DNA from: Candidatus Cloacimonadota bacterium | GTDB taxonomy: Bacteria > Cloacimonadota > Cloacimonadia > Cloacimonadales > JAJBBL01 | NCBI GenBank assembly: GCA_019429305.1 | Contig: JAHYIR010000016.1 | Span: 1-42,546 of the forward strand | Direction of reading: 5' to 3' | DNA: 42,546 bases | In this document: in pieces, positions 21,189 through 41,297 of the stretch | Layout: the number at the start of each line of letters is the position of its first letter | Numbering within the stretch: the first letter of the stretch is position 1 | The notes under the pieces: model-generated | What the model saw: only the letters and a program-made list of their open reading frames with translations | Told to the model about the DNA's origin: nothing | The model's database searches: none | Translations under genes and position numbers: made by a program

Positions 21189-24100
21189 ATGATCTTAGAT
21201 ATATTCCTCTCCTTCATTGCTTTCTTTTTATACATGCAGTTAGGATTGTATGTACTTTTCAATAAACCACGTTCCAAAGTCAACCGGGCATTTTTCTATC
21301 TCTCCATTAGTTTAGTGATCTGGTCATTTGGTTATGTTTTTATCCATGCCTCGAACAATATAGATACTTTTCTTTTTTGGGAACGGATCTCTTCCTTCGG
21401 CTGGATAATCTTCCCAGCACTGCTGGTTAATTTCTTTTTTGTACTAAAAAAACAAGCCAAATCACTATTCAGAACAATAACTCAGCTTGGTTTTTATTTA
21501 GCTGGTTTAGTCTTCTTTATCCAGTCATTGTTGGGACATCTATTGAGCAATGATTACCTTTATGTAGCAGAAAGATGGATCTTTAAACCTAATTTTGCTT
21601 CTGCTTGGTATATATCCTTTGTCGTATATCTCGTTTTAGCAGTAATGATCAGTTTCTATCTGCTCATTTCTTGGAGCTTGAAGACTAAGGTCAATAAAGA
21701 AAAGATCCAGTCCAAGATCATCATGATCACCCTCTTCCTATACTTTGCTGGGATTCTGGTCAGTAACTACATAATACCGGTTGTTAGTCCTGTAGAATTT
21801 CCCGGATTAATCCACATAACATCCTTTTTCTGGGTTGCAGGCTTTGGATTAGCAATAGTGAGATATAAATTTTTGGTTTTAAATCCTCAAACAGCAGCGA
21901 GTGAGATCATTGCCAACATGAAGGAACTTTTATTCTTTCTCGATACAGAAGGTAAGATAATTAAGATCAATCAGTTCACGGAAGAGTTATTAGGTTATGA
22001 ATCTTCAGAAATAATCAACCAACAATTCAATAGTTTTTTGGTTGATAAGGAAAAAGCCCGCAAGATACTTGCCATCGAAGACACTTTAGAAGAGATAAAA
22101 CCGCATGAGTATTTTTTGCGCAAAAAAAATAGAGATATTGTATTATTCAATCTCTCTTCAGCAGAAGTAAAAGATGATGCCGGCGATACTTTAGGAACAA
22201 TAATCGTCGGGTATGACATCAGGTATGAGAAAATGCTGGAAGAGGCGTTACGCAACAGCGAGAAAAAGTTCCGTGAACTCTATACTATGGTCAGGTTAAT
22301 GTGTGATAATGTACCCGATCTGATCTGGGCTAAAGATCTGGAGAAAAGGTACATTTTTGCCAATAAGGCGACCTGTCAGATACTGCTCAATACCTCAGAT
22401 CCGGAAGAACCAATCGGTAAAACTGATGCGTTTTTTTTCCAAAGAGAAAAAGAGTCACACAAAGATGATAAATTTTGGTTTACTTTTGCTGAAGACTTAC
22501 CCGATTCCGATAGTATCACTTTGGAAAGACGACAAGCGGGGCGTTATCTTGAGTTTGGTAATATCAGAGATGAATTTGTCTATTTTGATGTTTATAAAGC
22601 CCCCTTCTGGGTTGAAAATCAAAATATGATCGGTCTTGTCGGCTGTGGTAGGGATGTAACCTTAGAAAAACGGATGGAAGAGAAAAGGTTGGATACTGAG
22701 ATCGCTCTATCTCAAGAGAAAGAGCTTCTATCAGTAACATTGAGTTCTATCGGGGACGGAGTTATCTCTACCGATACAGACGGAAGAATAGTCCTGATCA
22801 ATAAAGCGGCGGAAGAAATGACCGGTTGGCAGAAAGAAGAAGCATTCGGTGAACATATAGATCAGGTTTATAAATTGCTTGATTCTCATACACGAGAGGA
22901 GTTGGAGAGCACTTTTTCACTTGTATTAAGAACAGGCAGGATCATTGGCACCGAGCATAGTCCTATTCTGTTAAACAGATCAGGAAAGAAGATTTATATA
23001 GCTCACAATGGAGCACCTATTTTTAACAAGGAAGGTCAGATAATAGGTGTTGTTATTGCATTCAGCGATATAACTGCCAAAAAACAGATCGAACATGAGC
23101 TGATCAAAATACAGAAATTGGAGACAGTCGGGGCATTGGCAGGTGGGATAGCCCACGATTTCAATAATATTATGACTGCCATATTGGGCAATGTTTCAAT
23201 GGTTATCAGGAAGATGCCAGATGAGAAGTTAAGAAATAGATTATTTATAGCAGAAAAGGCCTGTTTCCGAGCTCGTGATCTGACCAGACAACTTCTCACA
23301 TTTGCTAAAGGGGGAGAACCGGTTAAGAAAGTTGTCCTATTGAACAAGATGATCGAAGACGCAGTTCTTTTCTCTCTAAAGGGCTCTGATATAGAGTGTA
23401 AGCTAAACATATCAAGAAATCTGCGACCTGTTGAAGTTGATGAAAGTCAGATCAGCCAAGTTATTAGTAATTTATTGATCAATGCCAAGCAAGCTATGCC
23501 TGATGGTGGCTTATTGTTAATAAATGCCGAGAATATAACTAAAACTGATACCTTCAACTTGCCAATAGAAAATGGAGAATATGTTAAAGTTGAAGTTATA
23601 GATACCGGAACCGGAATATCACCACAACATATTAATCATATCTTTGATCCCTTCTATACAACCAAGCAAGATGGTACCGGCTTAGGTTTGGCTATCAGCT
23701 TCAATGTTTTAGCTCGTCATCATGGTTATCTCCATGCTGTTTCTGAAGAAGGGAAAGGATCAATTTTCACTATCTATTTACCTGCCTCCGGGAAAGAATT
23801 CGTTCCTGAGAAAGTACAGGAAGAGGTTATCCCTTATCGTGGTGAGGGCTACATTATCCTGATGGATGATGAGATAGAGATCAGGAATACCCTCGGCAGC
23901 ATGTTAGAGTCTTTAGGATTTACTGTCATTTGTACTGAAAAAGGTGAGGAAACAATTAATGAATTAGAAAAACTAAGAGAGAATAAAGAGAATCTTGTTT
24001 GTACAATTCTTGATCTTATTGTACCTCACGGAATGGGTGGAAAAGAAACGATCATGAAGCTAAGAGAGATTGACCCTGATATCAAAGCGATCGTTTCCAG

Positions 24101-24239
24101 TGGTTATTACAGTGATCCGGTAGTTGCTAATTATGCCAGATACGGCTTTAATGGAGTGATTGAAAAACCTTATACAATTAGTAATTTGATCAAGGTTATC
24201 AAAGAGGTCACTTCAAACGTTAAGCAAGTAGTAAATTAG
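21189..24239 (+). CDS. Hybrid sensor histidine kinase (7TM, PAS repeats, HisKA, ATPase, receiver)
   Basis: A 1016-residue membrane hybrid kinase. The first ~230 residues contain about seven hydrophobic segments, as in the His-kinase N-terminal 7TM sensor (IFLSFIAFFLYMQLGLYVLF opens it). Three PAS-like regions follow at about 235-350, 360-495 and 510-630 (FFLDTEGKIIKINQFTEELLGYE; ISTDTDGRIVLINKAAEEMTGW). The HisKA box GGIAHDFNN has the phospho-His at 656. The ATPase has NAKQAM (N box), DTGTGIS (G1), FDPFYTTK (F) and GTGLGLAIS (G2). A C-terminal receiver (~890-1012) has Asp942 in ILDLIVP and Lys in IEKPYT. No output domain follows, so phosphate likely passes to another receiver. It stands alone among repeats next to the pilus locus. 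AGGATAAAGTT precedes the ATG. Confidence 0.93.
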   Translation: MILDIFLSFIAFFLYMQLGLYVLFNKPRSKVNRAFFYLSISLVIWSFGYVFIHASNNIDTFLFWERISSFGWIIFPALLVNFFFVLKKQAKSLFRTITQLGFYLAGLVFFIQSLLGHLLSNDYLYVAERWIFKPNFASAWYISFVVYLVLAVMISFYLLISWSLKTKVNKEKIQSKIIMITLFLYFAGILVSNYIIPVVSPVEFPGLIHITSFFWVAGFGLAIVRYKFLVLNPQTAASEIIANMKELLFFLDTEGKIIKINQFTEELLGYESSEIINQQFNSFLVDKEKARKILAIEDTLEEIKPHEYFLRKKNRDIVLFNLSSAEVKDDAGDTLGTIIVGYDIRYEKMLEEALRNSEKKFRELYTMVRLMCDNVPDLIWAKDLEKRYIFANKATCQILLNTSDPEEPIGKTDAFFFQREKESHKDDKFWFTFAEDLPDSDSITLERRQAGRYLEFGNIRDEFVYFDVYKAPFWVENQNMIGLVGCGRDVTLEKRMEEKRLDTEIALSQEKELLSVTLSSIGDGVISTDTDGRIVLINKAAEEMTGWQKEEAFGEHIDQVYKLLDSHTREELESTFSLVLRTGRIIGTEHSPILLNRSGKKIYIAHNGAPIFNKEGQIIGVVIAFSDITAKKQIEHELIKIQKLETVGALAGGIAHDFNNIMTAILGNVSMVIRKMPDEKLRNRLFIAEKACFRARDLTRQLLTFAKGGEPVKKVVLLNKMIEDAVLFSLKGSDIECKLNISRNLRPVEVDESQISQVISNLLINAKQAMPDGGLLLINAENITKTDTFNLPIENGEYVKVEVIDTGTGISPQHINHIFDPFYTTKQDGTGLGLAISFNVLARHHGYLHAVSEEGKGSIFTIYLPASGKEFVPEKVQEEVIPYRGEGYIILMDDEIEIRNTLGSMLESLGFTVICTEKGEETINELEKLRENKENLVCTILDLIVPHGMGGKETIMKLREIDPDIKAIVSSGYYSDPVVANYARYGFNGVIEKPYTISNLIKVIKEVTSNVKQVVN

Positions 24240-24965: not shown

Positions 24966-26153
24966 TTACGGCAGTAGTTTCGGTTCCAGTTCAGGTTGAC
25001 GTTGACGTTTGATTTCAATCTCCTCGGCTACATCTTGTCTTATGAGCTTTCTTTCATGGATGGCGGGCAAGATAGAAGCTTTAAGAAGAATAATCAGTTC
25101 CTTTGTTTCGATCTCGTGTTTGTTATAACCGGTAAGATATCTGATACCAAAGACCCACCACGGTAAATCCTTCAAGAAAGGTATTCCATAGCGATCACTT
25201 CTAGTTTTGGAAGTTGTCAAACCACCGATAATTGTCTCTTCTCCATTGTACAGAGTTTTAAAGCTAGTTACTTCTGAAGTCAATTTTTCATATCCGGTTG
25301 GGTTAGGAAATGCTTCACTACGCTCAACCTTGATATTAAGCTTAATAGCTTTTTCACCTTCTTCATCAAGAATAACAAGAGGTGTAACTCTGACAATTGT
25401 TCCAGACTGCACATCAATTTCTCTGGCTCTTTCAACTTCTGTTCCAGCAGTAGTTATCCCGGCAAGTAAGATCGTGAAGTCTCTGCCGTCCTGAACAGTT
25501 CCGGTCTCTCCGGATGAAACAGTAACCTGTGGAGTAGCGAGGAAATGACCTTGATTAGTACTTGCTAATGCCTTAAAGAGAGCATTGACTTCAATAGTAG
25601 TATCTCCGATATCAAAGGCACGGTCTCCAGTTGAGACAGTTAACAAATCTGAGGTTAATCGATCAGTACTCGATAAATCTGCATTAATCTTAACTCTTCC
25701 ACCAATAAAAGAACTCCAGTCAATACCTAATTCTCGCACAGTGCGAAAATCAATTTCGAAGAAAGTCGCCTCGATCAGTATATCGTCTATGTATTCAACA
25801 GCAGCTTCTTCTTTAGTTGGGGCTTTCAGGTCACTCTCTTTGCGAACAAGAAAGGCATTATCCCTTTCTTGAAGAACAAGCTCATTTTTCTTCAAGATAC
25901 TGTTAAAAGCGGCTTTCCAGTGGATGCGGTCGAGATTGATCCCAATAGGACCGACATAGTCCGACATATCGAGGAGAACTTTGTTCTCATACTGACGATA
26001 ATAGGGATCAAAGATCCTAACAGCATCGGCAAACTGGACATTTTCCGATAAACTGATCAGATCTCTTTCTCCCTGTGGAGCGGCAAACAGACAGAAGGTA
26101 GCCAAACAGATCATGAATGCTACCACTAATGAATAGATTGATTTACTTCTCAT
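24966..26153 (-). CDS. Minimal outer-membrane secretin (PilQ/GspD family)
   Basis: A 395-residue secretin starting at ATG 26153 (AAAGGAGTTCTTTATA upstream), which gives a clean signal peptide (MRSKSIYSLVVAFMICLATF, then CLFAAP). An earlier ATG at 26186 would hide it. Residues ~30-105 form one STN-like N domain (LISLSENVQFADAVRIF, INLDRIHWKAAFNSILKKN). Residues ~120-370 are the secretin core: VEYIDDILIEATFFEID, FLATPQVTVSSGETGTVQDG, and the signature YNGEETIIGGLTTSKTRSDRYGIPFLKDLPW followed by ELIILLKASILP. It forms the outer-membrane ring for pilus or substrate exit. It is short beside PilQ or GspD (usually 600+ aa), lacking AMIN and N1-N3 domains. It is the last gene of the minus-strand pilus operon. 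Confidence 0.92.
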   Translation of the reverse strand: MRSKSIYSLVVAFMICLATFCLFAAPQGERDLISLSENVQFADAVRIFDPYYRQYENKVLLDMSDYVGPIGINLDRIHWKAAFNSILKKNELVLQERDNAFLVRKESDLKAPTKEEAAVEYIDDILIEATFFEIDFRTVRELGIDWSSFIGGRVKINADLSSTDRLTSDLLTVSTGDRAFDIGDTTIEVNALFKALASTNQGHFLATPQVTVSSGETGTVQDGRDFTILLAGITTAGTEVERAREIDVQSGTIVRVTPLVILDEEGEKAIKLNIKVERSEAFPNPTGYEKLTSEVTSFKTLYNGEETIIGGLTTSKTRSDRYGIPFLKDLPWWVFGIRYLTGYNKHEIETKELIILLKASILPAIHERKLIRQDVAEEIEIKRQRQPELEPKLLP

Positions 26154-26203
26154 TATAAAGAACTCCTTTGAGGGTAATTCATTCATTACCTCTATTTAAA
26201 TTA

Positions 26204-27118
26204 TTATTGAGGTTGGATCTGAAGACGGATATCTTCAGCTATACCTGTTAGATTCATACGGAATACAACCTCTTGATTGTTCCAATCAATACTTTGTAAC
26301 CTACCATATCTAATCTGATCGCCGACGTGCATAACCTCTATGTTTCCTGTACGGCGGTTTCTGATAAATACTCTTTCCTGCGTCATGCCGACAATGATGA
26401 TCTCCGAAAGATCCAGCATTTGTCTGAACTCTTCTGTTTCTATTCTCATCGGATCATGAATACGGGGATAGAATATATTATAGACCAATCTTCTTTCGCG
26501 CAGATCTTTTAAAGCAATATCTTCGTGAGGAACACCGGTCTTAGTATAATAAGCATTAAATTCTATCGTGAAACTCACCTTTCCTTGTTCTTCAGGTGGT
26601 AAAGTCCCCAGATTGATTTTTTCAATACTATAAAAAGCCGGTTGCCTTTCTAACTGATCAATAAAGATATATAAGAGATTCACATACGCTTTACCTGTTA
26701 ACTCATACTTGTGATAAAACACCTCTTGATCTTCATTGACTGTTCCCGAAGAAACGATCCTGTAGTTGAAATAGAAATTGTTCTTATATTTCCAGAAGAT
26801 ATCGAAAATGTAGGAAAGGGTTATTGTTGAGTTATTCAGGTTCGGCATTACTTTATCGGTCAGGAACAATTCCTCTTGCAGCTCTGCTAATCTCGCTCTT
26901 AAGGCATCTTCTGATGCCAGCTCGGTCATGATCCTCATCAATTCCTGCTGTTTTTGCGCGTTTTGAGCTAACAACTCTTCCCGTGTTGTGCGTAGATTTT
27001 TGCTGATCACAACGGTTAAGATGATGATAATAACTAAGAAGACCACCAATACGATTAGATTACGGGTCTTGTAATCGAGACCTTTCTTGTACAAAAACGT
27101 TAATTTATATTCTCCCAT
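26204..27118 (-). CDS. PilO-PilP fusion-like inner-membrane alignment protein
   Basis: A 304-residue protein. A short cytosolic N-terminus precedes one membrane segment at ~20-40 (NLIVLVVFLVIIIILTVVIS), followed by a coiled coil (~42-85) and a PilO-like alpha/beta domain (~95-205, containing YELTGKAYVNLLYIFIDQLE). The last ~70 residues (LSEIIIVGMTQERVFIRNRR, GDQIRYGRLQSIDWNNQEVVF) resemble the beta-domain of PilP/GspC that contacts the secretin. In classical systems PilO and PilP are separate genes. Here one chain would link the inner-membrane complex to the secretin encoded just downstream (50 bp). The PilP-like part is recognised by pattern and position only. Confidence 0.72.
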   Translation of the reverse strand: MGEYKLTFLYKKGLDYKTRNLIVLVVFLVIIIILTVVISKNLRTTREELLAQNAQKQQELMRIMTELASEDALRARLAELQEELFLTDKVMPNLNNSTITLSYIFDIFWKYKNNFYFNYRIVSSGTVNEDQEVFYHKYELTGKAYVNLLYIFIDQLERQPAFYSIEKINLGTLPPEEQGKVSFTIEFNAYYTKTGVPHEDIALKDLRERRLVYNIFYPRIHDPMRIETEEFRQMLDLSEIIIVGMTQERVFIRNRRTGNIEVMHVGDQIRYGRLQSIDWNNQEVVFRMNLTGIAEDIRLQIQPQ

Positions 27119-27122
27119 CTTT

Positions 27123-28871
27123 CTATCTCCCGCTTAATTCGTTATTTCCCTCTAAATCTGAGAGATAGGATTTATCAACATCTGCTTTTTCGATAATAAT
27201 TGCTTCTATTACCTCATTACGACGATTAGGCATGCTTATATTCGTTATACGTGACTCGCGTAGATAGTTGAGCCGTTTCGTTTCCAGCGGATCGGGCATA
27301 TTGAAAAAGATCTCATAATCCCAGACAGTATGTTCTTGGATCGGATCTTCAGTGAAGAATCTTATAACTGCATCGGGGAAAAGTTTGGAAAGTGCTATGA
27401 TATGTAACCGGTTAGTAGTTTTACCCGAGACAGCAAATCCTGTTCGTTCCTCTCGCAACGATACTACCCAACTGAGTCTGTTACGATGGAAAGAATTGGC
27501 TATCCGCTCCATTATGTAGTGCCATTGATTACGACTACCGATCAGCAGATTAGTCCGGGCAATATTTGTCTCGATTGTAGCGATCTCGTCTCTGATCACA
27601 TTAAGTGAATCAAGTCGGACCCGGTTAACTTCGATCTGTGATTGTGTGCGGTTGATTTCCAACCTGATCCTGCTGTTCTGGGTTTGGTTGCCTAAGATGT
27701 TATTTATCCCGATCAGTATGACGATCAAAATCAATCCCAGAGCAACTAATCCTGCCGGATTGATCGAGAAAAAGTTTTGCTGTTCCCTCAACTGGCGGGG
27801 CAGGAAATTCGAACGAATTAGCGAAGATGCTTTGGGTAGGGCTGCAGTAACAGCCAGCATGATCGGGACAATATATTCAGCAAGTGTCTTATCGTCATAG
27901 ATCTCAGAATAGTCAATCATATCGATCAGCTTATTCGGCAATAAATACTCCACTCTCGATTCCGGTTGCCTGTCAGCGATAAACTCCAACATCGAATCAT
28001 TTAATCCTTCTCCGGCTAAGAAATAATTATTCACTACCGACAGATTGAGATGTGAACTCTCCAACATCAGGCGGGAGAAGATCGTCTTGATGGCATCTTT
28101 CGATTTATAACCCTCATTGATGATCGGCAGATCGACCAAGAAATCGTACCCCTTAACCAGAGTGATACGGCTATAATCCATACCGATAAACATGATTGCC
28201 GATACATCTCCTGGTTTGATGTTATAATTGAAACGAAGGGCATTGATCAGAGCAAATTCATTTGGCTGAATGTAAGAATAATGATAACGTTTCTTGGAGA
28301 GGGTGCGATTAAGATTGATCAGATTCTCCAACAGCTCCATTTTTCCTTCATGACTGACACCAACAACTGTTCCGTCGTGCCGCTCCAAATGAGAGAAAGT
28401 CATTACTGCCGGAGATTCAGCATCAAAAAATAGCTTTTTAATCTCCGAATAGACCTTTTTCTTACTCGCTTTTTCCGGGATCTTCAATTCTTTGTAACTT
28501 ATATTGGAGATATCCAGATTAAGTGAAACTGTTCCATTTTCAAATTTTAATTCCCGTGCCACTTTTTCCAGGGTTCGTTCTTCCGATTTTGCCTGAAGAG
28601 GTTCGGCTTCTTTGGGAATACCAAAATCCTGTTGTGAATCGGACTCTGCTCCCGATGGTTTATCACCACCGGTCTCAAAATCAAAATCAAAGTCCAGATC
28701 TGTCAGGGTTTCATCGAACATACCGTCCGGGGTTGTCGGAACATCCCCTTCCGGTAACCTTACCGTCTGCAGATCAACTATCCGAAGCCGTTCTTTATCC
28801 GCCTCCAGATAAGCTATCTTGATTGCAGAACCGTCCTGCATCAAACCAAAAGATCTTATTTTTTTTGCCAT
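27123..28871 (-). CDS. PilM-PilN / GspL-like fusion protein of the pilus inner-membrane platform
   Basis: A 582-residue protein. Residues 1-340 are cytosolic with a PilM-like actin-fold pattern (IRSFGLMQDGSAIKIAYLEAD; YSYIQPNEFALINALRFNY; GDVSAIMFIGMDYSRITLVK), interrupted by an acidic insert at ~45-95 (DFDFDFETGGDKPSGAES). A membrane segment lies at about 370-390 (PAGLVALGLILIVILIGINN). A coiled coil and a PilN-like ferredoxin-fold domain follow (~395-545, with WHYIMERIANSF, LSWVVSLREERTGFAVSGKT). So PilM and PilN functions are joined in one chain, the arrangement known from GspL. ATP-binding residues of PilM are not obvious. It lies between pilT and the PilO-PilP gene with gaps of 9 and 4 bp. 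Confidence 0.78.
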   Translation of the reverse strand: MAKKIRSFGLMQDGSAIKIAYLEADKERLRIVDLQTVRLPEGDVPTTPDGMFDETLTDLDFDFDFETGGDKPSGAESDSQQDFGIPKEAEPLQAKSEERTLEKVARELKFENGTVSLNLDISNISYKELKIPEKASKKKVYSEIKKLFFDAESPAVMTFSHLERHDGTVVGVSHEGKMELLENLINLNRTLSKKRYHYSYIQPNEFALINALRFNYNIKPGDVSAIMFIGMDYSRITLVKGYDFLVDLPIINEGYKSKDAIKTIFSRLMLESSHLNLSVVNNYFLAGEGLNDSMLEFIADRQPESRVEYLLPNKLIDMIDYSEIYDDKTLAEYIVPIMLAVTAALPKASSLIRSNFLPRQLREQQNFFSINPAGLVALGLILIVILIGINNILGNQTQNSRIRLEINRTQSQIEVNRVRLDSLNVIRDEIATIETNIARTNLLIGSRNQWHYIMERIANSFHRNRLSWVVSLREERTGFAVSGKTTNRLHIIALSKLFPDAVIRFFTEDPIQEHTVWDYEIFFNMPDPLETKRLNYLRESRITNISMPNRRNEVIEAIIIEKADVDKSYLSDLEGNNELSGR

Positions 28872-28880
28872 ACCATTCTC

Positions 28881-30101
28881 TTAAGCCATCTTATTCTGAT
28901 AATACTGAATAAGATCGACCATCCTTTTTTTGTTGTTAGCGTACGCAATAGCATTCTTTCTAGTTATTATCTTGTTCATATATAGACGAAGCAGGTCCTG
29001 CTCCATCGTTACCATACCAAGGTCTTTACCTTCAGTAATCATTTGGTAAATCTCACCTACATTATTATTTATAATTGCTGCCGCTACATTGGCAGTTACA
29101 TTAAGGATCTCTTTCGCCATTATTCTCTTACCATCGGTAGAAGGGACTAACTTCTGGGATATTACTACACTCAAGACATCTGCCAGTCGCATTCTTACTC
29201 TTTGTTGCTCTTCAACGGGGCACTCGGCTACAATACGGTGGATACTCTCCGATGCCGAACCGGTATGGAGAGTCGAGAAGACCTTATGACCACTATCGGT
29301 GATCTCCAATGCGGTCATGATCGTGTCCGGGTCTCGCATCTCACCGATAACTATAATATCCGGATCCTGACGTAAAGATTCTATCGTACCATCTTTAAAA
29401 GAGAGTGTATCTCTTCCCACTTCACGATGACGGACGATACATTTATTAGATTTATGGAAAAATTCGATCGGGGAACCAATGATAGTAACATGTCCTTCAT
29501 TATGATTATTGTTCATATTGATGATCGCATCGAGAGTTGTACTCTTACCGGAACCAGTGATACCAGTTACCAGGATCAACCCCTTCTTCTCGAAATCGAG
29601 ATCGAGTTTTCTCACTATTGGTGCCGGAAAGCCCAAAGATTCCATAGTAAAAGGTTGTGGGTTGATATGACGGAAGTTACAAGCTAAAAAATCGAGGTCC
29701 ATATAGGCATCTGCTCGGAAACGGTGCAGCAGACCATCCTGCTCTATCTGATAAGAAAAATCAGCATTCTGAGAGAGAATTATTGAGTCTATCTTCTTCT
29801 CGGAAAGGATACTGCAAATCAAAGCAGTCGAGTCATCATGTTCTAACTGGGAAAATTCATTGAAGGGGAATTTACGGCTGAAAACTCTATACCAGACTCT
29901 TCTGTTGGCACCCATCCCACCGAAATCAATATCCGATGCCTCTAATTCGATCATCTTATTTAGAAATGTGTTAATTGTCTTTTGCGCTTCTAAACGATAA
30001 TCCGGATTTTCTGAGATAATCCGGTTTATCTCGGCTACTCGATCTATACCCTGAATATAATAGGGTAACTCCTTCAGTTTCGTGGAAAATGAGAATTTCA
30101 T
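28881..30101 (-). CDS. pilT: PilT-type twitching/retraction ATPase
   Basis: A 406-residue hexameric ATPase of the PilT/PilU type. Walker A is GITGSGKST (~residues 180-188), Walker B DPDIIVIGEMRD with the catalytic Glu, the His box STLHTGSASESIHRI, and the Arg-containing REVGRDTLSF. The Asp box is altered: GSPIEFFH where PilT usually has EDPIEFVH. It would power pilus retraction or disassembly at the inner membrane. It is the first gene of the minus-strand arm. AGAGGTTGG lies about 9 nt before the ATG. The retraction ATPase is encoded away from PilB, which is in the opposite arm. Confidence 0.92.
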   Translation of the reverse strand: MKFSFSTKLKELPYYIQGIDRVAEINRIISENPDYRLEAQKTINTFLNKMIELEASDIDFGGMGANRRVWYRVFSRKFPFNEFSQLEHDDSTALICSILSEKKIDSIILSQNADFSYQIEQDGLLHRFRADAYMDLDFLACNFRHINPQPFTMESLGFPAPIVRKLDLDFEKKGLILVTGITGSGKSTTLDAIINMNNNHNEGHVTIIGSPIEFFHKSNKCIVRHREVGRDTLSFKDGTIESLRQDPDIIVIGEMRDPDTIMTALEITDSGHKVFSTLHTGSASESIHRIVAECPVEEQQRVRMRLADVLSVVISQKLVPSTDGKRIMAKEILNVTANVAAAIINNNVGEIYQMITEGKDLGMVTMEQDLLRLYMNKIITRKNAIAYANNKKRMVDLIQYYQNKMA

Positions 30102-31767: not shown

Positions 31768-32211
31768 ATGGGGAAGAAACAATTTTTACTAATTTTTCTG
31801 GGTATCATTTTAATAGTTGCAACTGCATTTATTTGTAGGTATATGTATCAATCCTATAAAATAGATGCCCATCAGGACGACATCATATTTGATATTATGA
31901 GGATCGCTGATGCTGCCTATAAATATAGAGTTGAGCAGGGGCAGACTCAGGATGGTGTAGCTCTCTATACCGGTTTTGAAATACCACAAAACTATAATTT
32001 CACATCCAATGCCCTGTATCAGGTTTCCATATCAGATGATGGTGAAGTTATAACGATCAAAGGTCTATCCCAGTTAGTAGTTGGTGCTTCTATTTATGCT
32101 CATTTTGACCGGCAATTGAATTTCTTAGCCGCAACTGAAGAGGGAGAGAGACATATTCTTTCTCCGATCGGGAGTGACAGAGAGAGTTTTTTTTTCTGGG
32201 AAGGTTGGTAG
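31768..32211 (+). CDS. Pilin-like membrane-anchored protein 1
   Basis: A 147-residue protein. It begins MGKKQFLLIFLGIILIVATA, a hydrophobic helix from residue 6, then a polar helix (YQSYKIDAHQDDIIFDIMRIADAAYKYRVEQGQ) and a small beta-rich domain. The layout matches the other two pilin-like genes in this region (33326-33775 and 34238-34651), which begin MGQQQILL. There is no GFTLIE-type cleavage site and no Glu at position +5. AATAGAGGATGATAAA precedes the ATG. The upstream TTGACA (31679-31684) suggests a sigma-70 promoter rather than the sigma-54 type of its relatives. It is on the opposite strand to them and flanked by repeats, and is probably an exported pseudopilin-like subunit. Confidence 0.68.
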   Translation: MGKKQFLLIFLGIILIVATAFICRYMYQSYKIDAHQDDIIFDIMRIADAAYKYRVEQGQTQDGVALYTGFEIPQNYNFTSNALYQVSISDDGEVITIKGLSQLVVGASIYAHFDRQLNFLAATEEGERHILSPIGSDRESFFFWEGW

Positions 32212-33325: not shown

Positions 33326-33775
33326 TTAGTTAGTTGGTGGTTCTGGGGGCTCACCAGGAGATGCAGTTAAATCCGTTATCGACATTAGGCCATTTTCATC
33401 TATAGTAATAGTACGACCATGTAAGTAAGTAGCATTCCATCCATGAATTTCTACTGAAATATCAGTTACTGTACCGATAACATAATAACCATTCTGATTC
33501 ACTTGCATATCATATGGCAGAGTATCAAAATATGCTTCGAAACCCATACCCGGAGTAGGTAGTGCTGAAGCATCATAAACACCGCCACCGCCACCCATGC
33601 TGACTGGTCTCAGTTTGTGCTGATAAGCGATAGCACCTAAGTTATTAAGGTCTGCAATAATTGCATCAAGATTACTCTGTCTAGCTTGTGCTCTGAACAT
33701 TGTGATACCGACCGCAATGGCGATACCAACTAAGATCACACTTAAAACGATCAATAGGATTTGTTGTTGTCCCAT
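33326..33775 (-). CDS. Pilin-like protein 2
   Basis: A 149-residue protein starting at ATG 33775, with ATTGGAGGATATT upstream; a longer frame to 33829 runs through the sigma-54 promoter. The N-terminus MGQQQILLIVLSVILVGIAI is hydrophobic from residue 6 to ~27, followed by an amphipathic stretch (RAQARQSNLDAIIADLNNLGAIAYQH) like the C-terminal part of a pilin alpha-1 helix. Then come a Gly run (MGGGGG) and a small beta domain. Cleavage after Gly2 would give a mature N-terminal Gln with no Glu5, unlike type IVa pilins. A single-gene transcript is likely: a sigma-54-type promoter lies 40 nt upstream and a terminator directly after. It is the best major-pilin candidate with its paralogue. Confidence 0.78.
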   Translation of the reverse strand: MGQQQILLIVLSVILVGIAIAVGITMFRAQARQSNLDAIIADLNNLGAIAYQHKLRPVSMGGGGGVYDASALPTPGMGFEAYFDTLPYDMQVNQNGYYVIGTVTDISVEIHGWNATYLHGRTITIDENGLMSITDLTASPGEPPEPPTN

Positions 33776-33812
33776 AATATCCTCCAATATTTTTTTGGTT
33801 GCCAGATACATA

Positions 33813-33829
33813 TGCAAGGGTCGTGCCAA
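33813..33829 (-). promoter_or_regulatory. Sigma-54-type promoter of pilin-like gene 2
   Basis: On the minus strand TTGGCACGACCCTTGCA is a full match to the -24/-12 consensus TTGGCACG-N4-TTGCA. GG is at 33827-33826 and GC at 33815-33814, exactly 10 nt apart. The GC lies 40 nt before the start codon, the same distance as for the paralogous pilin-like gene 3. Confidence 0.82.
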
Positions 33830-34237: not shown

Positions 34238-34651
34238 TCATTGAGTAGGTGGTTCAGTAATAAATAAGTCAAACTTGCCGTCATTATCAACCGAAAGCCA
34301 GCGTATTATCGGTTCATTGTTTTCCTGATGCATTTTCGAAACTCCTTGAATGACCACAAGATCAGGAAGGAGAGTATGAATCGTATAGGTCCCATTAATA
34401 TTGTCTGTCAATCCATCAGGTAAATCAATAAAGTATTCGTCAAAACCGTCATATGAAGCTGCACTGCCTAATTCGGCAGTTTGTCTCATTCGGTATTGAT
34501 ATGCCATTATACCGAGATTGTTCAGATCGGTTATCATTGCATCAATATTACTTTGCACCGTTTGAACACGAAATGTAGTAATACCGATCACAATTGCTAT
34601 TGCAACCAGGATAATAACTAAAACAAGTAAAAGAATCTGCTGTTGTCCCAT
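34238..34651 (-). CDS. Pilin-like protein 3
   Basis: A 137-residue paralogue of the gene at 33326-33775. The N-terminus MGQQQILLLVLVIILVAIAI is nearly identical, and the following helix is conserved too (FRVQTVQSNIDAMITDLNNLGIMAYQYRMRQ). The C-terminal part diverges (YDGFDEYFIDLPDGLTDNIN; WLSVDNDGKFDLFITEPPTQ). Strong conservation of the membrane helix with a variable head is the pattern of pilin paralogues. There is no Glu5 and no canonical prepilin leader. GTGAGGTGAATT precedes the ATG. It has its own sigma-54-type promoter and its own terminator. Confidence 0.78.
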   Translation of the reverse strand: MGQQQILLLVLVIILVAIAIVIGITTFRVQTVQSNIDAMITDLNNLGIMAYQYRMRQTAELGSAASYDGFDEYFIDLPDGLTDNINGTYTIHTLLPDLVVIQGVSKMHQENNEPIIRWLSVDNDGKFDLFITEPPTQ

Positions 34652-36240: not shown

Positions 36241-37587
36241 ATGTTTAAAGAGTTTCGTTACACAGGTACAAGATTAGACAATGGGGCAACTGTTAGGGGT
36301 GTCTGTCCGGCAAATAATTTATCAACAGCCCGTCACAAGATCAATGAGTTAGCAGTAAAAAACAATTTTGTAGTCAACAGTATTGAAAAGAAAAAAATGT
36401 TCTTATATAAGGGAATAACCTCCATGGGAAACAAAGTAAGCGGCGAGCAGGAGGCGTATTCCAAAGAGGAATTGTATCGAGTTCTGGAAGGGCTCAATAT
36501 GAGCAACATCAAGATCGAGCCGATGCTCCTCGATATCAGAATAAAACCGCCCTTTGCCGATGTTGTCATGTTCATCACTCTCTCTTCCGAAATGCTCAAA
36601 GAAAACATGAGATATGATGAAGTCTTAAAGATCTTAGGGATGGATATGCAGAACAAGACCCTGAAGCGGACGATCAAATATATTTCACGGGACTTGAAAC
36701 AGGGGCAGGACGGTGCTGTTGTGTTTATGAAGTATTCCGATATCTTTGGACGCTTCACTTCCTATATGCTTGGACTGGCATCAAAATCGGGTAACATGGC
36801 ACAGATCTATGATAATACGGCAAAATATCTGGAACGACAGCATGAATTCAGGAAGAATGTAAAACAGGCACTTGTTATGCCGACAATAACCATGATAGCC
36901 ATCATAATCGCTATTGCATACTATGTCGGGGTTCTTTTTCCTCAGATAACCGAGATGTTTATCCAATACAATATTGATCTTCCGCCAATGACAGCAGCAA
37001 CTCTTCAAGTGAGTTATTTTCTGCAGGATAACTGGTGGTGGATGATTCTCTTGTTTTTCACTCCCATTTTTGCCATAGGTTATTGGTTCAGTACTCCCAA
37101 AGGGAGATTATTTAGGGACAGAATGATTTTAAAACTCCCGTTGGTAGGAACCTTGCTTCATAAAATGAGTATCGAGATATTCTTTAGAGTATTCTCGACG
37201 GTTTATACAGGTGCCGGTAATAATATGGAAGTAATTCAGCTTTCAGCCGAAGCTTGTGGTAATCAATATATGGAGAAACAGGTGAAGGAGATAACCATAC
37301 CGAGAATGTTAAAAGATGGTGCTGGATTGATTGAGGCATTAGCTCAATCAGGAGTCTTTACAGAAACTGTGATCTCTAGATTAAATGCCGGTTCGGCTAC
37401 CGGATCTGTAAAAAAGTCAGCCGAGCAGATAGCGATCTATTATGAGAAAGAAACCGGTTATAGGTTCCGGACAATTCTTAACTCAATAGATGTAACCACT
37501 GCCATAATCATCATGGTCGTGATGACTTTCCTGATCATTGTTTCCTCTGAGAGTGCCTTTATCCGTCCGCCAACACACGGATTCTAA
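36241..37587 (+). CDS. pilC: Pilus/secretion inner-membrane platform protein (PilC/GspF)
   Basis: A 448-residue GspF-family protein that forms the inner-membrane core contacting PilB and PilT. There are two GspF repeats: cytoplasmic helical domain 1 (~100-210, ITLSSEMLKENMRYDEVLKIL) then membrane segments at ~217-238 (TMIAIIIAIAYYVGVLFPQI) and ~264-286 (WWWMILLFFTPIFAIGYWF). Domain 2 follows (~300-410, LVGTLLHKMSIEIFFRVFST, VISRLNAGSATGSVKKSAEQ), with the final segment ~418-440. The N-terminal ~95 residues are a longer extension than usual (RYTGTRLDNGATVRGVCPANN), comparable to the short FxYxAxDxxG start of PilC. GTGAGGCCAAG precedes the ATG. It is followed by pilB after 6 bp. Confidence 0.93.
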   Translation: MFKEFRYTGTRLDNGATVRGVCPANNLSTARHKINELAVKNNFVVNSIEKKKMFLYKGITSMGNKVSGEQEAYSKEELYRVLEGLNMSNIKIEPMLLDIRIKPPFADVVMFITLSSEMLKENMRYDEVLKILGMDMQNKTLKRTIKYISRDLKQGQDGAVVFMKYSDIFGRFTSYMLGLASKSGNMAQIYDNTAKYLERQHEFRKNVKQALVMPTITMIAIIIAIAYYVGVLFPQITEMFIQYNIDLPPMTAATLQVSYFLQDNWWWMILLFFTPIFAIGYWFSTPKGRLFRDRMILKLPLVGTLLHKMSIEIFFRVFSTVYTGAGNNMEVIQLSAEACGNQYMEKQVKEITIPRMLKDGAGLIEALAQSGVFTETVISRLNAGSATGSVKKSAEQIAIYYEKETGYRFRTILNSIDVTTAIIIMVVMTFLIIVSSESAFIRPPTHGF

Positions 37588-37593
37588 TAAAAT

Positions 37594-39381
37594 ATGAATG
37601 AGATGAATGATAATCAATTAGTAGCCAAACTTCTGAAACTAAAGAATATCATCAGTGAAGATATCTATAATGCGGTAATTACCAAGACCAATACTTTAGG
37701 CAACAAATCTAAAGTAGAAGAGATCCTCATTGATGAATATCATATCGATAGAGATGCAGTTTATACAGAGATAGCCAAGATATATGCTATTCCGAAGACT
37801 ACTGTCAATATAGAGAATATGACAGCAGGAGATATCGAAGAAGCACGAGAGTTGATCTTCAGTCTGCCTAAAGATATAAAAGAAGAGGTCTTTCAGAAAA
37901 GGATCATCCCCTATAAAATTCAGAAGAAAAAGAATGAGTCCTTGATAATCCTCTCGTCAATACCAACTGATAATTTTACCAGAACACTGGCTAATGCCCT
38001 TAAGATAAAAAGATTCGATGTTTACTATTGCCCCTGGGACAAAATTGATAAGTTGATCTCTCATATATCGAGCAAAGAAGAGGAAAAATATCTGGAAGAT
38101 ATGCTCGATAAATCCGAGTCTGAGCTGGAAATACCGGATCAAACTTTAGAGGACGAATCTGAAGATCTGATCGAACAGGAGATCAATAAGGGTGCTCTGG
38201 TCTATCTCTTTGAAGCCGCACTCATTGATGGCGTTAAGTCACAGGTCAGTGATGTTCACGTGATACCTTTCAACCATACAAGTGTAGATATCAGATTCAG
38301 GCAGGATGGTAGATTGCGTCTTTGGAAAAGAAAAGAGGGTATCAATCCACAATCTTTTCTTTCAGTCGTCAAGGACCGTTCCAGCAATGTTGACCGTTTT
38401 AAGGTAGATGAAGCCCAAGACGGTTTTATTCAGAGAGAGATCGAAGGGCATACTATCAGGTTCCGAGTCTCGATCTTGCCGATCGTTTCCAGAGAGCATA
38501 GCCGGCATTATGAAAGTATCGTTATCAGAATATTGGACGATAGGAATGTCATTGATAATATTGACAAGTTAGGTTTTCTGCCAAGAGCACGACAGGACTT
38601 TGAAGAAGCCGTTACTAAGCCCCAGGGATTGGTCATAGTTACAGGTCCGACCGGTAGTGGTAAAAGTACGACCCTCTTGGCAGCTCTGTATCATGTGATT
38701 ACACCTGAGAAGAATATCCTGACAGTTGAAGATCCGGTTGAGTATGTCATCAAAGGAGCAAGACAGATCAAGATCAGTCCCAAGCTCGATTTTAACTGGG
38801 CAATCAGATCTATACTCCGTCATGACCCCGATATTGTTATGGTCGGTGAGATGCGCGACAAGGAAACAGCTGAAGTGGCAATCAAATTAGCTAATACAGG
38901 TCACTTAACCTTCTCGACACTCCATACCAATGATGCCCCGAGTGCCATCTCCCGTCTCTATAAAATGGAAATTGAGACCTTCCTGCTCGCTTATGCGATC
39001 AATATTATCGTTGCCCAACGATTGGTCAGAAAACTCTGTAAGCACTGTAAAAGGGTAGTTGGTGCTGACAAACATCAGTATCTAATGCGGAATGGGATCA
39101 CAGAAGAGGAGTTACAAGCCGGTAAGGTCTTCGAAGTGGTTGGATGTGAGAAATGCCGGACAACCGGATATAGTGGGCGTGTAGCTATCCATGAAGTGAT
39201 CCTCTTTACAAAAGAGATCCGCCAAGCGATAGTAAGTGCCAAAACTGATATTAATGAAGATCTGATCCGTGAGATAGCTAAAGGACAAGGAATGCTTTCT
39301 CTTCGTGAAGCGGGTATTGAGCTTGTCCGTCAAGGAATGACGACTATTGAAGAAGTGATCTATACGACTACTATAGCTTAA
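37594..39381 (+). CDS. pilB: Pilus/secretion assembly ATPase (PilB/GspE)
   Basis: A 595-residue AAA+-like secretion ATPase that powers pilin polymerisation. The N-terminal ~150 residues are a GspE_N/MshEN-like region (IISEDIYNAVITKTN, EEILIDEYHIDRDAVYTEIA). An acidic linker lies near 170-200. The core has Walker A GPTGSGKST (~351-359), Asp box TVEDPVEYV, Walker B DPDIVMVGEMRD, and His box STLHTNDAPSAISRL. The zinc-binding C-M2 element is complete: CKHC (~482) and CEKC (~518). All catalytic residues are intact, in contrast to the REC-ATPase encoded downstream. It lies in an operon with pilC. Confidence 0.95.
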   Translation: MNEMNDNQLVAKLLKLKNIISEDIYNAVITKTNTLGNKSKVEEILIDEYHIDRDAVYTEIAKIYAIPKTTVNIENMTAGDIEEARELIFSLPKDIKEEVFQKRIIPYKIQKKKNESLIILSSIPTDNFTRTLANALKIKRFDVYYCPWDKIDKLISHISSKEEEKYLEDMLDKSESELEIPDQTLEDESEDLIEQEINKGALVYLFEAALIDGVKSQVSDVHVIPFNHTSVDIRFRQDGRLRLWKRKEGINPQSFLSVVKDRSSNVDRFKVDEAQDGFIQREIEGHTIRFRVSILPIVSREHSRHYESIVIRILDDRNVIDNIDKLGFLPRARQDFEEAVTKPQGLVIVTGPTGSGKSTTLLAALYHVITPEKNILTVEDPVEYVIKGARQIKISPKLDFNWAIRSILRHDPDIVMVGEMRDKETAEVAIKLANTGHLTFSTLHTNDAPSAISRLYKMEIETFLLAYAINIIVAQRLVRKLCKHCKRVVGADKHQYLMRNGITEEELQAGKVFEVVGCEKCRTTGYSGRVAIHEVILFTKEIRQAIVSAKTDINEDLIREIAKGQGMLSLREAGIELVRQGMTTIEEVIYTTTIA

Positions 39382-39749
39382 AAGTAGTGATTAGCTATTA
39401 ATGATTAGTGAAAAACCTACGGAGAGATAGCTAAGGGCGGAGAGCTAAGGGCTAAGAGCTGAGGGCAGAGAGCAAAGACAAGCAAGGAGGATAAACTTGA
39501 GAAACTCACAACTCAAGACTCATAACTCACTACTATTTTTCAAGTCTCCAGGTTAAAACAGATATCAGTAAAGGGGGAATAGATAATTGTACAATCAGAT
39601 GTTACGCGAGAATACGATTCCTTAAACAAAGTACACTTTTCTCTGTGTTCTCTTTTTTTTCTCCGTGTACTCTGTGCCTCCGTGGTTAATTAGATTTGAT
39701 TAAAAATTGAAACAGAAGTAAAAAACAAAGAAAATAAAGAGGTAAAGTT
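39382..39749. repeat. Low-complexity spacer before the receiver-ATPase gene
   Basis: No gene is seen. It holds a purine-rich imperfect tandem (GCTAAGGGCGGAGAGCTAAG, GGCTAAGAGCTGAGGGC, ~39432-39475), an ACTCACAACTCAAGACTCA tract (~39504-39532), and a CTCTGTG...CTCCGTGGTTAAT repeat (~39637-39690). The 368-bp gap means that the next gene may have its own promoter, but none is convincing. Confidence 0.6.
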
Positions 39750-41297
39750 ATGAAGCCCAGAATTCTTATTATCGACGACGAAAAAGAAGCAAGGGATTTG
39801 TTTAAAAGTTTCTTGGAAGGGGAAGATTACGAAATAGTCGAAGCTGAGAACGGACAGGAAGCATTTAATCTGGTCAGTAACGAGATCTTTGATCTCTACA
39901 TCACGGATATTTTTATGCCGGAGATGAACGGTATCGAATTTCTTAAGGTTTTGAAAACATTTGATCCCGATGCTGTAGTGATCATCATTACCGGCTATGA
40001 TAAGATGGAATATACTAAACAAGCTCTTGAGTATGGTGCCTTTCGGTTCATGACCAAACCGGTCAAGCTGGCTGAGTTCCGTTCAGCAGTAGATCTCGGA
40101 TTATTGGAACGTAAGAAACTGTTCCAGTCAAGCACCTCCGAAAAGCTCTTGAGAATGAAGCAAAAGCTTAATACTAATGTAGAATTACGAGCAAGGGTCT
40201 TCAATAAATTTCAAAACTTTTTGCTCAGTATGGAAGAAAAACAGCCGAACTATTTAGAGATCGGTGGACCCGGTTCTAAAGACAAGATTTGGGGTAAATT
40301 CTTTTCTAACTTCAAACCGATCCCCTTTGAGAGCGGCTTTGTTCAGGATGAGATCAATATCATGATCTTGAGTATTTTGAGTAATTCTCAGTTAGAAACG
40401 TTAATTGATCAGAAGTCAATTAAAGCCAATTTTGAATTCACAGCTAATGAAGTCCTATACCGTTATCGGCTAAATATTTTCTTTGATATGGATGAACTGG
40501 TCATTGGTGTCAAAACAACAAGAAGATCGATCATCAATCTGGAACAGATGAAGTTTAGCAATCAAGTTCTTAATAATTTAACTTTCAAGAACGAAAATTC
40601 TGGTTTGATCATTGTGTCCGGACCCCCGGGCTCAGGAAAGAGTAGTTTAGTTGATGCAATTATCAATCTTAACAATAGTCATCTCTCCGGAAATATTGTG
40701 CTCGTTGCCGACTCGTTAGAATATATCCATGAGTCAAAGAATAGTGTTGTCAGGCATCAGAAACTTTATCGGGATGTAAATAGTGTCACTGATGCTTTAG
40801 AACGATGTCTCGATTATCATCCCAATATGGTCGTTATAGAGGATATTACCTCTTGTGAGATACTTGATGCAGCACTGAAACTCATTGATACCGGTTGTTT
40901 GGTTGTTGCTACTCTGAAAAACCAAAGCGTAACTGAAGTGATCTATAAATTACTATCCTTCTATCCACCGGAATCACACGATCTGGTTAGAAGGCATCTG
41001 GCGAGAACTTTATCAGTCATTATCTGCCTGCAATTATTGCCAACAACAAATAATAAGATGCTGCCGGTGAAGGAAATATTCGTAACGAATGATCAGTTAT
41101 CACAGGTAGTCTATTCTGGTAATATCGAAGAGATCTATCCTATGATCCAAAGAAACAGGAAATTAGGGCTGCAAACAATGGAACAAGATCTATTGATGAA
41201 TATGAAAGCAGGAATATTAAGCACTGAAATTGCTATGGAAGCAGCTAACCGCCCTAAACTCTTGAAGGACTTGATGCAATATACATCATCGGAATGA
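39750..41297 (+). CDS. Response-regulator receiver fused to a degenerate PilT-type ATPase
   Basis: A 515-residue two-part protein. Residues 1-120 are a full receiver domain: Asp9/Asp10 (IIDDE), phospho-acceptor Asp53 (LYITDIFMPEMNG), Thr81 (IITGYD), Lys103 (FMTKPVK). Residues ~185-510 are PilT-like, with an N domain and an ATPase core. Walker A is intact (GPPGSGKSS, Lys297). The Walker B region reads HPNMVVIEDITS where PilT has DPD...GEMRD, so the catalytic Glu is Asp and the Arg is lost. The His box is ATLKNQSV instead of STLHTNSA, and the REVGRDT arginine region is QKLYRDV. The C-terminus closely tracks the PilT gene of the other arm (IEEIYPMIQRNRKLGLQTMEQDLL). It probably binds ATP but hydrolyses it poorly, acting as a phosphorylation-controlled regulator or PilU-like subunit. 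AAAGAGGTAAAGTT precedes the ATG. Confidence 0.9.
   Translation: MKPRILIIDDEKEARDLFKSFLEGEDYEIVEAENGQEAFNLVSNEIFDLYITDIFMPEMNGIEFLKVLKTFDPDAVVIIITGYDKMEYTKQALEYGAFRFMTKPVKLAEFRSAVDLGLLERKKLFQSSTSEKLLRMKQKLNTNVELRARVFNKFQNFLLSMEEKQPNYLEIGGPGSKDKIWGKFFSNFKPIPFESGFVQDEINIMILSILSNSQLETLIDQKSIKANFEFTANEVLYRYRLNIFFDMDELVIGVKTTRRSIINLEQMKFSNQVLNNLTFKNENSGLIIVSGPPGSGKSSLVDAIINLNNSHLSGNIVLVADSLEYIHESKNSVVRHQKLYRDVNSVTDALERCLDYHPNMVVIEDITSCEILDAALKLIDTGCLVVATLKNQSVTEVIYKLLSFYPPESHDLVRRHLARTLSVIICLQLLPTTNNKMLPVKEIFVTNDQLSQVVYSGNIEEIYPMIQRNRKLGLQTMEQDLLMNMKAGILSTEIAMEAANRPKLLKDLMQYTSSE

Follow-up and report, generated by a model that had tools for sequence, protein, structure and literature searches.

Here we describe a gene that joins a complete response-regulator receiver (REC) directly to a PilT-type ATPase in a single protein. 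The gene, REC::PilT', is one open reading frame of 515 aa (39750-41297, + strand) in the window, the 42,546-nucleotide stretch of Candidatus Cloacimonadota DNA analysed here, and it occupies the operon position that most relatives give to a separate REC-cNBD protein, encoded directly upstream of the PilT-type paralogue PilT2. We judge it about an even chance that the fusion is a response regulator with a remodelled PilT2-type motor subunit as its output, gating the PilB/PilT2/PilC machine. The original prediction had proposed a phospho-switched regulator of the pilus motor made from a receiver and a catalytically altered PilT; its architecture and most of its residue changes hold across five families, and overall it is partly supported.

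The receiver occupies residues 1-118 (39750-40103, +) and matches Response_reg (Pfam PF00072) over residues 5-114 at 1.2e-29, scoring 103.1 bits against a gathering threshold of 30.2. Its acceptor site, formed by D53 (39906-39908, +), T81 (39990-39992, +) and K103 (40056-40058, +) together with D9/D10, is unchanged in all five complete copies of the fusion, so that the receiver is indeed complete at the three positions (Asp53, Thr81 and Lys103) named at the outset. A conserved helical linker follows at about residues 119-142 (40104-40175, +; helices at 107-125 and 129-142 in the model), and the receiver and linker find their best PDB match in NtrC1 (residues 5-139, 1.3e-22). The model and PDB folds place the N-terminal domain of a PilT-type ATPase, with R238/R240, at about residues 143-265 (40176-40544, +), and the RecA-like ATPase core with its C-terminal helices takes up residues 266-515 (40545-41294, +). 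Here Pfam matches T2SSE (PF00437) over residues 249-432 (3.6e-18, 65.8 bits against a gathering threshold of 24.9), and a phmmer search of the PDB aligns residues 206-508 to PilT at 3e-36. The AlphaFold model has a mean pLDDT of 90.7 and a pTM of 0.73, and Foldseek superposes about 350-360 of its residues onto PilT/PilU chains with a TMt of about 0.9 and an rmsd of 1.9-3 A. The whole two-domain PilT fold is therefore predicted in the fusion, which resembles PilU and PilT about equally. Against NCBIfam TIGR01420 the fusion scores 183.7, below the curated cut-off of 319.1, as does the PilT2 of the window (309.2). Pfam finds no PATAN domain and no sigma-54 interaction AAA+ domain (PF00158) in the protein, and T2SSE stands in place of any ParA/MinD-type ATPase domain. 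The direct joining of receiver and PilT-type ATPase is thus borne out by the single reading frame, Pfam, the PDB and AlphaFold/Foldseek alike.

The fusion occurs in 6 of the 125 Cloacimonadota genomes (G000, which is the genome of the window, G003, G004, G006, G007 and G014), in five families, and this combination of REC and T2SSE always lies in the PilC-PilB operon; G001, from the same family as the window, enters this count with a contig that ends inside PilB, short of the fusion position. The frame is open and full-length in five genomes; identity to the window copy is 49-65%, and the orthologues in G004, G006, G007 and G014 measure 512-516 aa. In G003 contig ends interrupt the gene within Walker A, the two pieces meeting at adjoining residues. 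An assembly error or frameshift joining two genes is ruled out by the uninterrupted orthologues of four further genomes, which likewise exclude the sequencing error between receiver and ATPase that the original prediction had asked to be checked. Samples of four other phyla, about 380-400 genomes each, yielded no fusion, a weak negative at three to four candidates per genome and a strict cut-off, and a single scan of viral contigs returned no relative that would point to a viral or mobile origin. Apparent fusions in Methylumidiphilus and Geobacter (loci L054-L056) turned out to be plain PilT/PilU.

A comparison of the six fusion ATPase halves with 48 PilT1/PilT2/PilB rows, column by column, shows which parts of the active site have been kept and which remodelled. 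Walker A (GPPGSGKSS, residues 291-299, 40620-40646, +) is retained as expected, the GxxxxGKS/T pattern being present, with K297 and S298, in 6/6 copies. The Asp-box Glu324 is also kept in all six, and of the N-domain arginines R238 is found in six copies and R240 in five. The Walker-B segment (PNMVVIEDITS, residues 358-368, 40821-40853, +) has changed from GE to ED, EE or DD and has lost RD as a pair. Its Gly, present in 46/48 of the other motor ATPases, is Glu in four fusions and Asp in two, and its Glu, invariant in the other 48, is Asp in four and Glu in two; the following Arg, likewise found in 48/48, is replaced by Asn (three copies), Thr (one) or Ala (one) and survives in one. The claim that the catalytic Glu had been lost (IEDITS for GEMRD) is therefore only partly right: GE has changed and RD is gone as a pair, and an acid is kept at the aligned position. 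Since a further acid replaces the preceding Gly, Walker-B acidity is retained. In the His box (VATLKNQS, residues 386-393, 40905-40928, +) the His found in 48/48 other motor ATPases is Lys in three copies and Arg in three, and the REVG Arg, present in every PilT1/PilT2 row, is Gln in five and Ile in one, both as foreseen. With the same positions changed in all six copies, the description of the ATPase as catalytically altered is well founded. Work on Pseudomonas aeruginosa PilT regards the corresponding changes, E204A in Walker B and H229A in the His box, as inactivating (PMC12607626), and on the evidence of these residues the ATPase half is probably hydrolysis-impaired. Walker A and the acidic residues persist, therefore some ATPase activity is possible. 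Between orthologues the receiver is 62-79% identical and the ATPase half 43-65%; because the receiver outconserves the ATPase and keeps every acceptor-site residue, phosphorylation appears to be under selection.

In the window the fusion lies directly downstream of a PilB-type ATPase of 595 aa (37594-39381, +; PF00437, 9.3e-103), which follows a PilC/GspF platform protein (36241-37587, +; PF00482, 6.5e-27), and a PilB orthologue lies before the fusion in all fusion genomes. On the opposite strand are PilT2 (28881-30101, -; PF00437, 8.5e-35), with intact catalytic motifs in the residue columns, and downstream of it a conserved neighbour with no Pfam match (27123-28871, -), for which position and topology suggest the name PilM/PilN-like. 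A putative PilO-like protein (26204-27118, -; so named from conserved order, with no Pfam match) and a secretin (24966-26186, -; PF00263, 1.2e-20) complete this group. A normal PilT and a normal PilB had been noted in the locus: PilB is indeed upstream and a catalytically intact PilT-type ATPase is present, but the latter belongs to a separate clade, PilT2, and the PilT that falls in the sampled T1 group is encoded elsewhere in the genome (G000:C3:75795). Small pilin-like proteins with an N-terminal hydrophobic stretch (often MG...) are encoded at 31768-32211, 33326-33829 and 34238-34651 of the window and at L038:6503-9013, and lack the usual GF(S/T)xxE prepilin motif. A 14-bp repeat array lies between PilB and the fusion (39425-39477), and intergenic tandem repeats with 30-bp units, TTTGTCATCTCGACTGAAGTATCCTTCCTC, are found near the contig end (41779-42436).

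The usual Cloacimonadota gene order (loci L044, L046, L047 and L050) is PilC, PilB, pilin-like genes, a PilS-TM/HisKA-only protein, REC-cNBD, PilT2, PilMN-like, PilO-like and secretin. In the fusion genomes it runs PilC, PilB, in some cases pilin-like genes, and then the fusion, with PilT2-PilMN-PilO-secretin as a separate operon. The fusion comes directly after PilB in G000, G003, G006 and G014 and after three pilin-like genes in G004 and G007. REC-cNBD is present in 80 genomes, a count that leaves out a weak partial match in G013, and stands directly upstream of 77 of the 105 PilT2 copies, mostly within 400 bp. It occurs in none of the six fusion genomes as against 78 of the 84 other PilT2 genomes (Fisher p 1.5e-6, kinship ignored). 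That the fusion lies in the PilC-PilB operon, at the position held by REC-cNBD in relatives, strengthens the link to the PilB/PilT machinery that the original prediction had drawn.

Other occupants of this region were also observed. In many Cloacimonadota the HisKA-only protein is encoded directly upstream of REC-cNBD (L046:9263-10189, L047:9173-10105, L044:10569-11117 and L050:9508-10422, all on the - strand); it has no ATPase domain but carries an H-box of HisKA type, which is DHDINTPL in the three copies inspected, and its PilS-like membrane domain was matched in L046 and L047. It is possibly a phosphotransfer or scaffold protein, and it was not found in the fusion genomes. Several Bacteroidota encode a stand-alone cNBD protein between PilB and PilT2 (L162:859-1362, L163:837-1355, L164:2904-3407, L165:664-1167 and L167:3090-3605), which hints that the same machine may answer to a second messenger. 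PilT2 itself is a clade of PilT-type ATPases, abundant in Cloacimonadota and Bacteroidota (130/396 sampled); the window copy and its relatives mostly lack the Asp-box Asp and the AIRNLIRE motif and retain the other catalytic residues. The simplest reading is of one regulatory slot with a changing occupant, be it cNBD, REC-cNBD or REC::PilT'.

Phylogeny places the two halves of the fusion near two neighbouring genes of the operon in relatives. The fusion receivers, with one G004 receiver paralogue nested among them, are nearest to those of REC-cNBD (90/83 in the tree), and holding fusion and REC-cNBD receivers together without the G004 paralogue is not rejected (AU p 0.068). The paralogue (G004:C4, L181:1411-2730) is a 439-aa protein whose receiver is 50% identical to that of the fusion and is joined to an unidentified C-terminal region. 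An NtrC-like protein as source of the receiver was discarded, as this G004:C4 receiver nests within the fusion receiver clade and hence represents a paralogue. The fusion ATPases form one clade (100/100) that groups with PilT2 (99/98) on a long stem outside all sampled PilT2, and the data neither favour nor reject a recent origin of the ATPase half by PilT2 duplication within the fusion genomes, in which it would nest with their own PilT2 (AU p 0.07). Kinship with PilT2 is pulled in opposite ways by individual residues: the fusions share R335 and N458 with PilT2, yet retain the Asp of the Asp box, which is gone from nearly all PilT2. An attractive route, which we infer from the adjacent and co-directional REC-cNBD and PilT2 genes of relatives, is a deletion joining the receiver of REC-cNBD to a neighbouring PilT2 copy.

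These observations enabled us to propose a model for the action of the fusion. A histidine kinase would phosphorylate D53 of the receiver, and the resulting rearrangement of receiver and linker would alter how the ATPase half oligomerises or docks, in the manner of NtrC1-type REC-linker-ATPase proteins. That half, binding ATP and hydrolysing it poorly, would join or cap the PilT2 ring, or compete with PilT2/PilB for the platform protein PilC; in this way a phosphorylation signal could set the balance of extension and retraction of a pilus (or pseudopilus) machine without a second protein. In its most specific form, which we advance only tentatively, a phosphorylation-gated pseudo-motor that replaced the ancestral REC-cNBD adaptor becomes part of the retraction ring, caps it or blocks PilC, and the kinase switches the machine directly with neither adaptor nor second messenger. 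The candidate kinase input is a hybrid histidine kinase (21189-24239, +; 7TM-PAS-PAS-HisKA-HATPase-REC by Pfam), a putative cognate partner that stands tail-to-tail with the secretin in the window and in G001 and has a weaker homologue between the two operons in G006; no dedicated kinase beside the fusion is common to all fusion genomes. When overexpressed, PilT or PilU with a dead ATPase disrupts the native ring of its own kind (PMC6821130), and CpiA is a dedicated PilB inhibitor. Together with the control of PilB1 by PixE and of PilB by FimX, these precedents render each step of the mechanism plausible. Conversely, PilT and PilU form separate homohexamers rather than mixed ones (PMC6821130), which weakens the mixed-ring form of the proposal, and the location of PilT2 in an operon separate from the fusion also counts against the model.

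Several other explanations bear on the same data. The fusion may be an active third motor, an accessory ring in the manner of PilU, whose catalytic site has diverged and whose ATPase is toggled by receiver phosphorylation. Walker A, the Asp-box Glu and the Walker-B acid do persist in all six copies, the model matches PilU as well as PilT, and PilU, which depends on PilT, is established as a second retraction ATPase (PMC6821130); however, all six fusions depart from the 48 PilT1/PilT2/PilB rows at the His box and around the Walker-B GE...RD, where those rows vary little or not at all, and we consider this reading somewhat unlikely. It is also unlikely, to our minds, that the protein is a signalling adaptor whose ATPase half only senses ATP or docks while the receiver relays motor state to a kinase or localises the machine. 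Retention of the complete predicted PilT fold, N-terminal domain included, seems beyond what docking needs, although such a role would suit the replacement of REC-cNBD, a two-module sensor or adaptor without a motor fold, and PilB is reported to act as a signalling protein in Myxococcus (PMC5544727).

The remaining two alternatives would deprive the operon position or the protein of significance. If the fusion genomes form one clade, as they may, the six genomes may record one event, and the exchange of occupants could reflect shared ancestry only, with one fusion, one loss of REC-cNBD and an unrelated role for the fusion. The equivalent operon position in all fusion genomes, after PilB or three pilin-like genes, and the status of the fusion and REC-cNBD receivers as nearest relatives make this very unlikely. 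Finally, the lost catalytic positions and the faster evolution of the ATPase half relative to the receiver are what a decaying, functionless motor paralogue might show, but this is scarcely credible and largely refuted by conservation, given an open full-length frame in five genomes, a pLDDT of 90.7 and substitutions common to all copies. The preferred reading is that of a response regulator with a motor-type output.

The fusion shares features with several known systems. TadZ/CpaE of Tad pili, likewise encoded in a pilus operon, combines a receiver-like domain and an ATPase in one protein, but its ATPase is of the ParA/MinD localisation type, outside the motor family, and its receiver is usually degenerate. 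The REC-cNBD of other Cloacimonadota shares the operon slot and the nearest receiver with the fusion, and has a cyclic-nucleotide-binding-type domain as its output. NtrC1-type REC-linker-AAA+ proteins (PDB 1ny5, 1zy2) resemble it in carrying a receiver and helical linker on a ring-forming ATPase, whereas their output is a sigma-54 AAA+ domain and that of the fusion a PilT-type secretion ATPase, with no DNA-binding domain. PilT and PilU (TIGR01420; PDB 6ojx, 9n32) have the same two-domain fold, Walker A, Asp-box Glu and N-domain arginines, and differ in that the fusion has an N-terminal receiver, an altered His box and Walker B, and a TIGR01420 score below the cut-off. Response regulators acting on pilus motors are already known, but they are unfused. 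The PATAN-CheY regulator PixE of Synechocystis binds PilB1 as a separate protein with a PATAN domain, unlike a receiver attached to a motor-family ATPase (PMC7690835), and FimX (REC-PAS-GGDEF-EAL), which controls PilB, contains a receiver that lacks the acceptor Asp and is not fused to an ATPase (PMC11656802). The original prediction knew of no receiver built into the motor ATPase family, and our search of the literature on REC-PilT fusions and unusual response-regulator outputs likewise found no description, a provisional result with subscription journals thinly covered.

How environmental signals reach pilus motors is a long-standing question, and the routes known so far run through separate adaptors (PixE, FimX/PilZ) or through second messengers. 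A receiver within the motor family would constitute a one-protein input-output device amenable to reconstitution in vitro. The comparison of the fusion with REC-cNBD in sister lineages and with the cNBD of Bacteroidota shows that the regulatory position between PilB and PilT2 can change its occupant, which suggests that two phyla share a pilus or pseudopilus machine under the control of PilT2; our literature search, with thin coverage of subscription journals, found no description of such a machine. Taken as a whole, the fusion suggests that in one branch of the Cloacimonadota a phosphorylation signal has been wired straight into the pilus motor.
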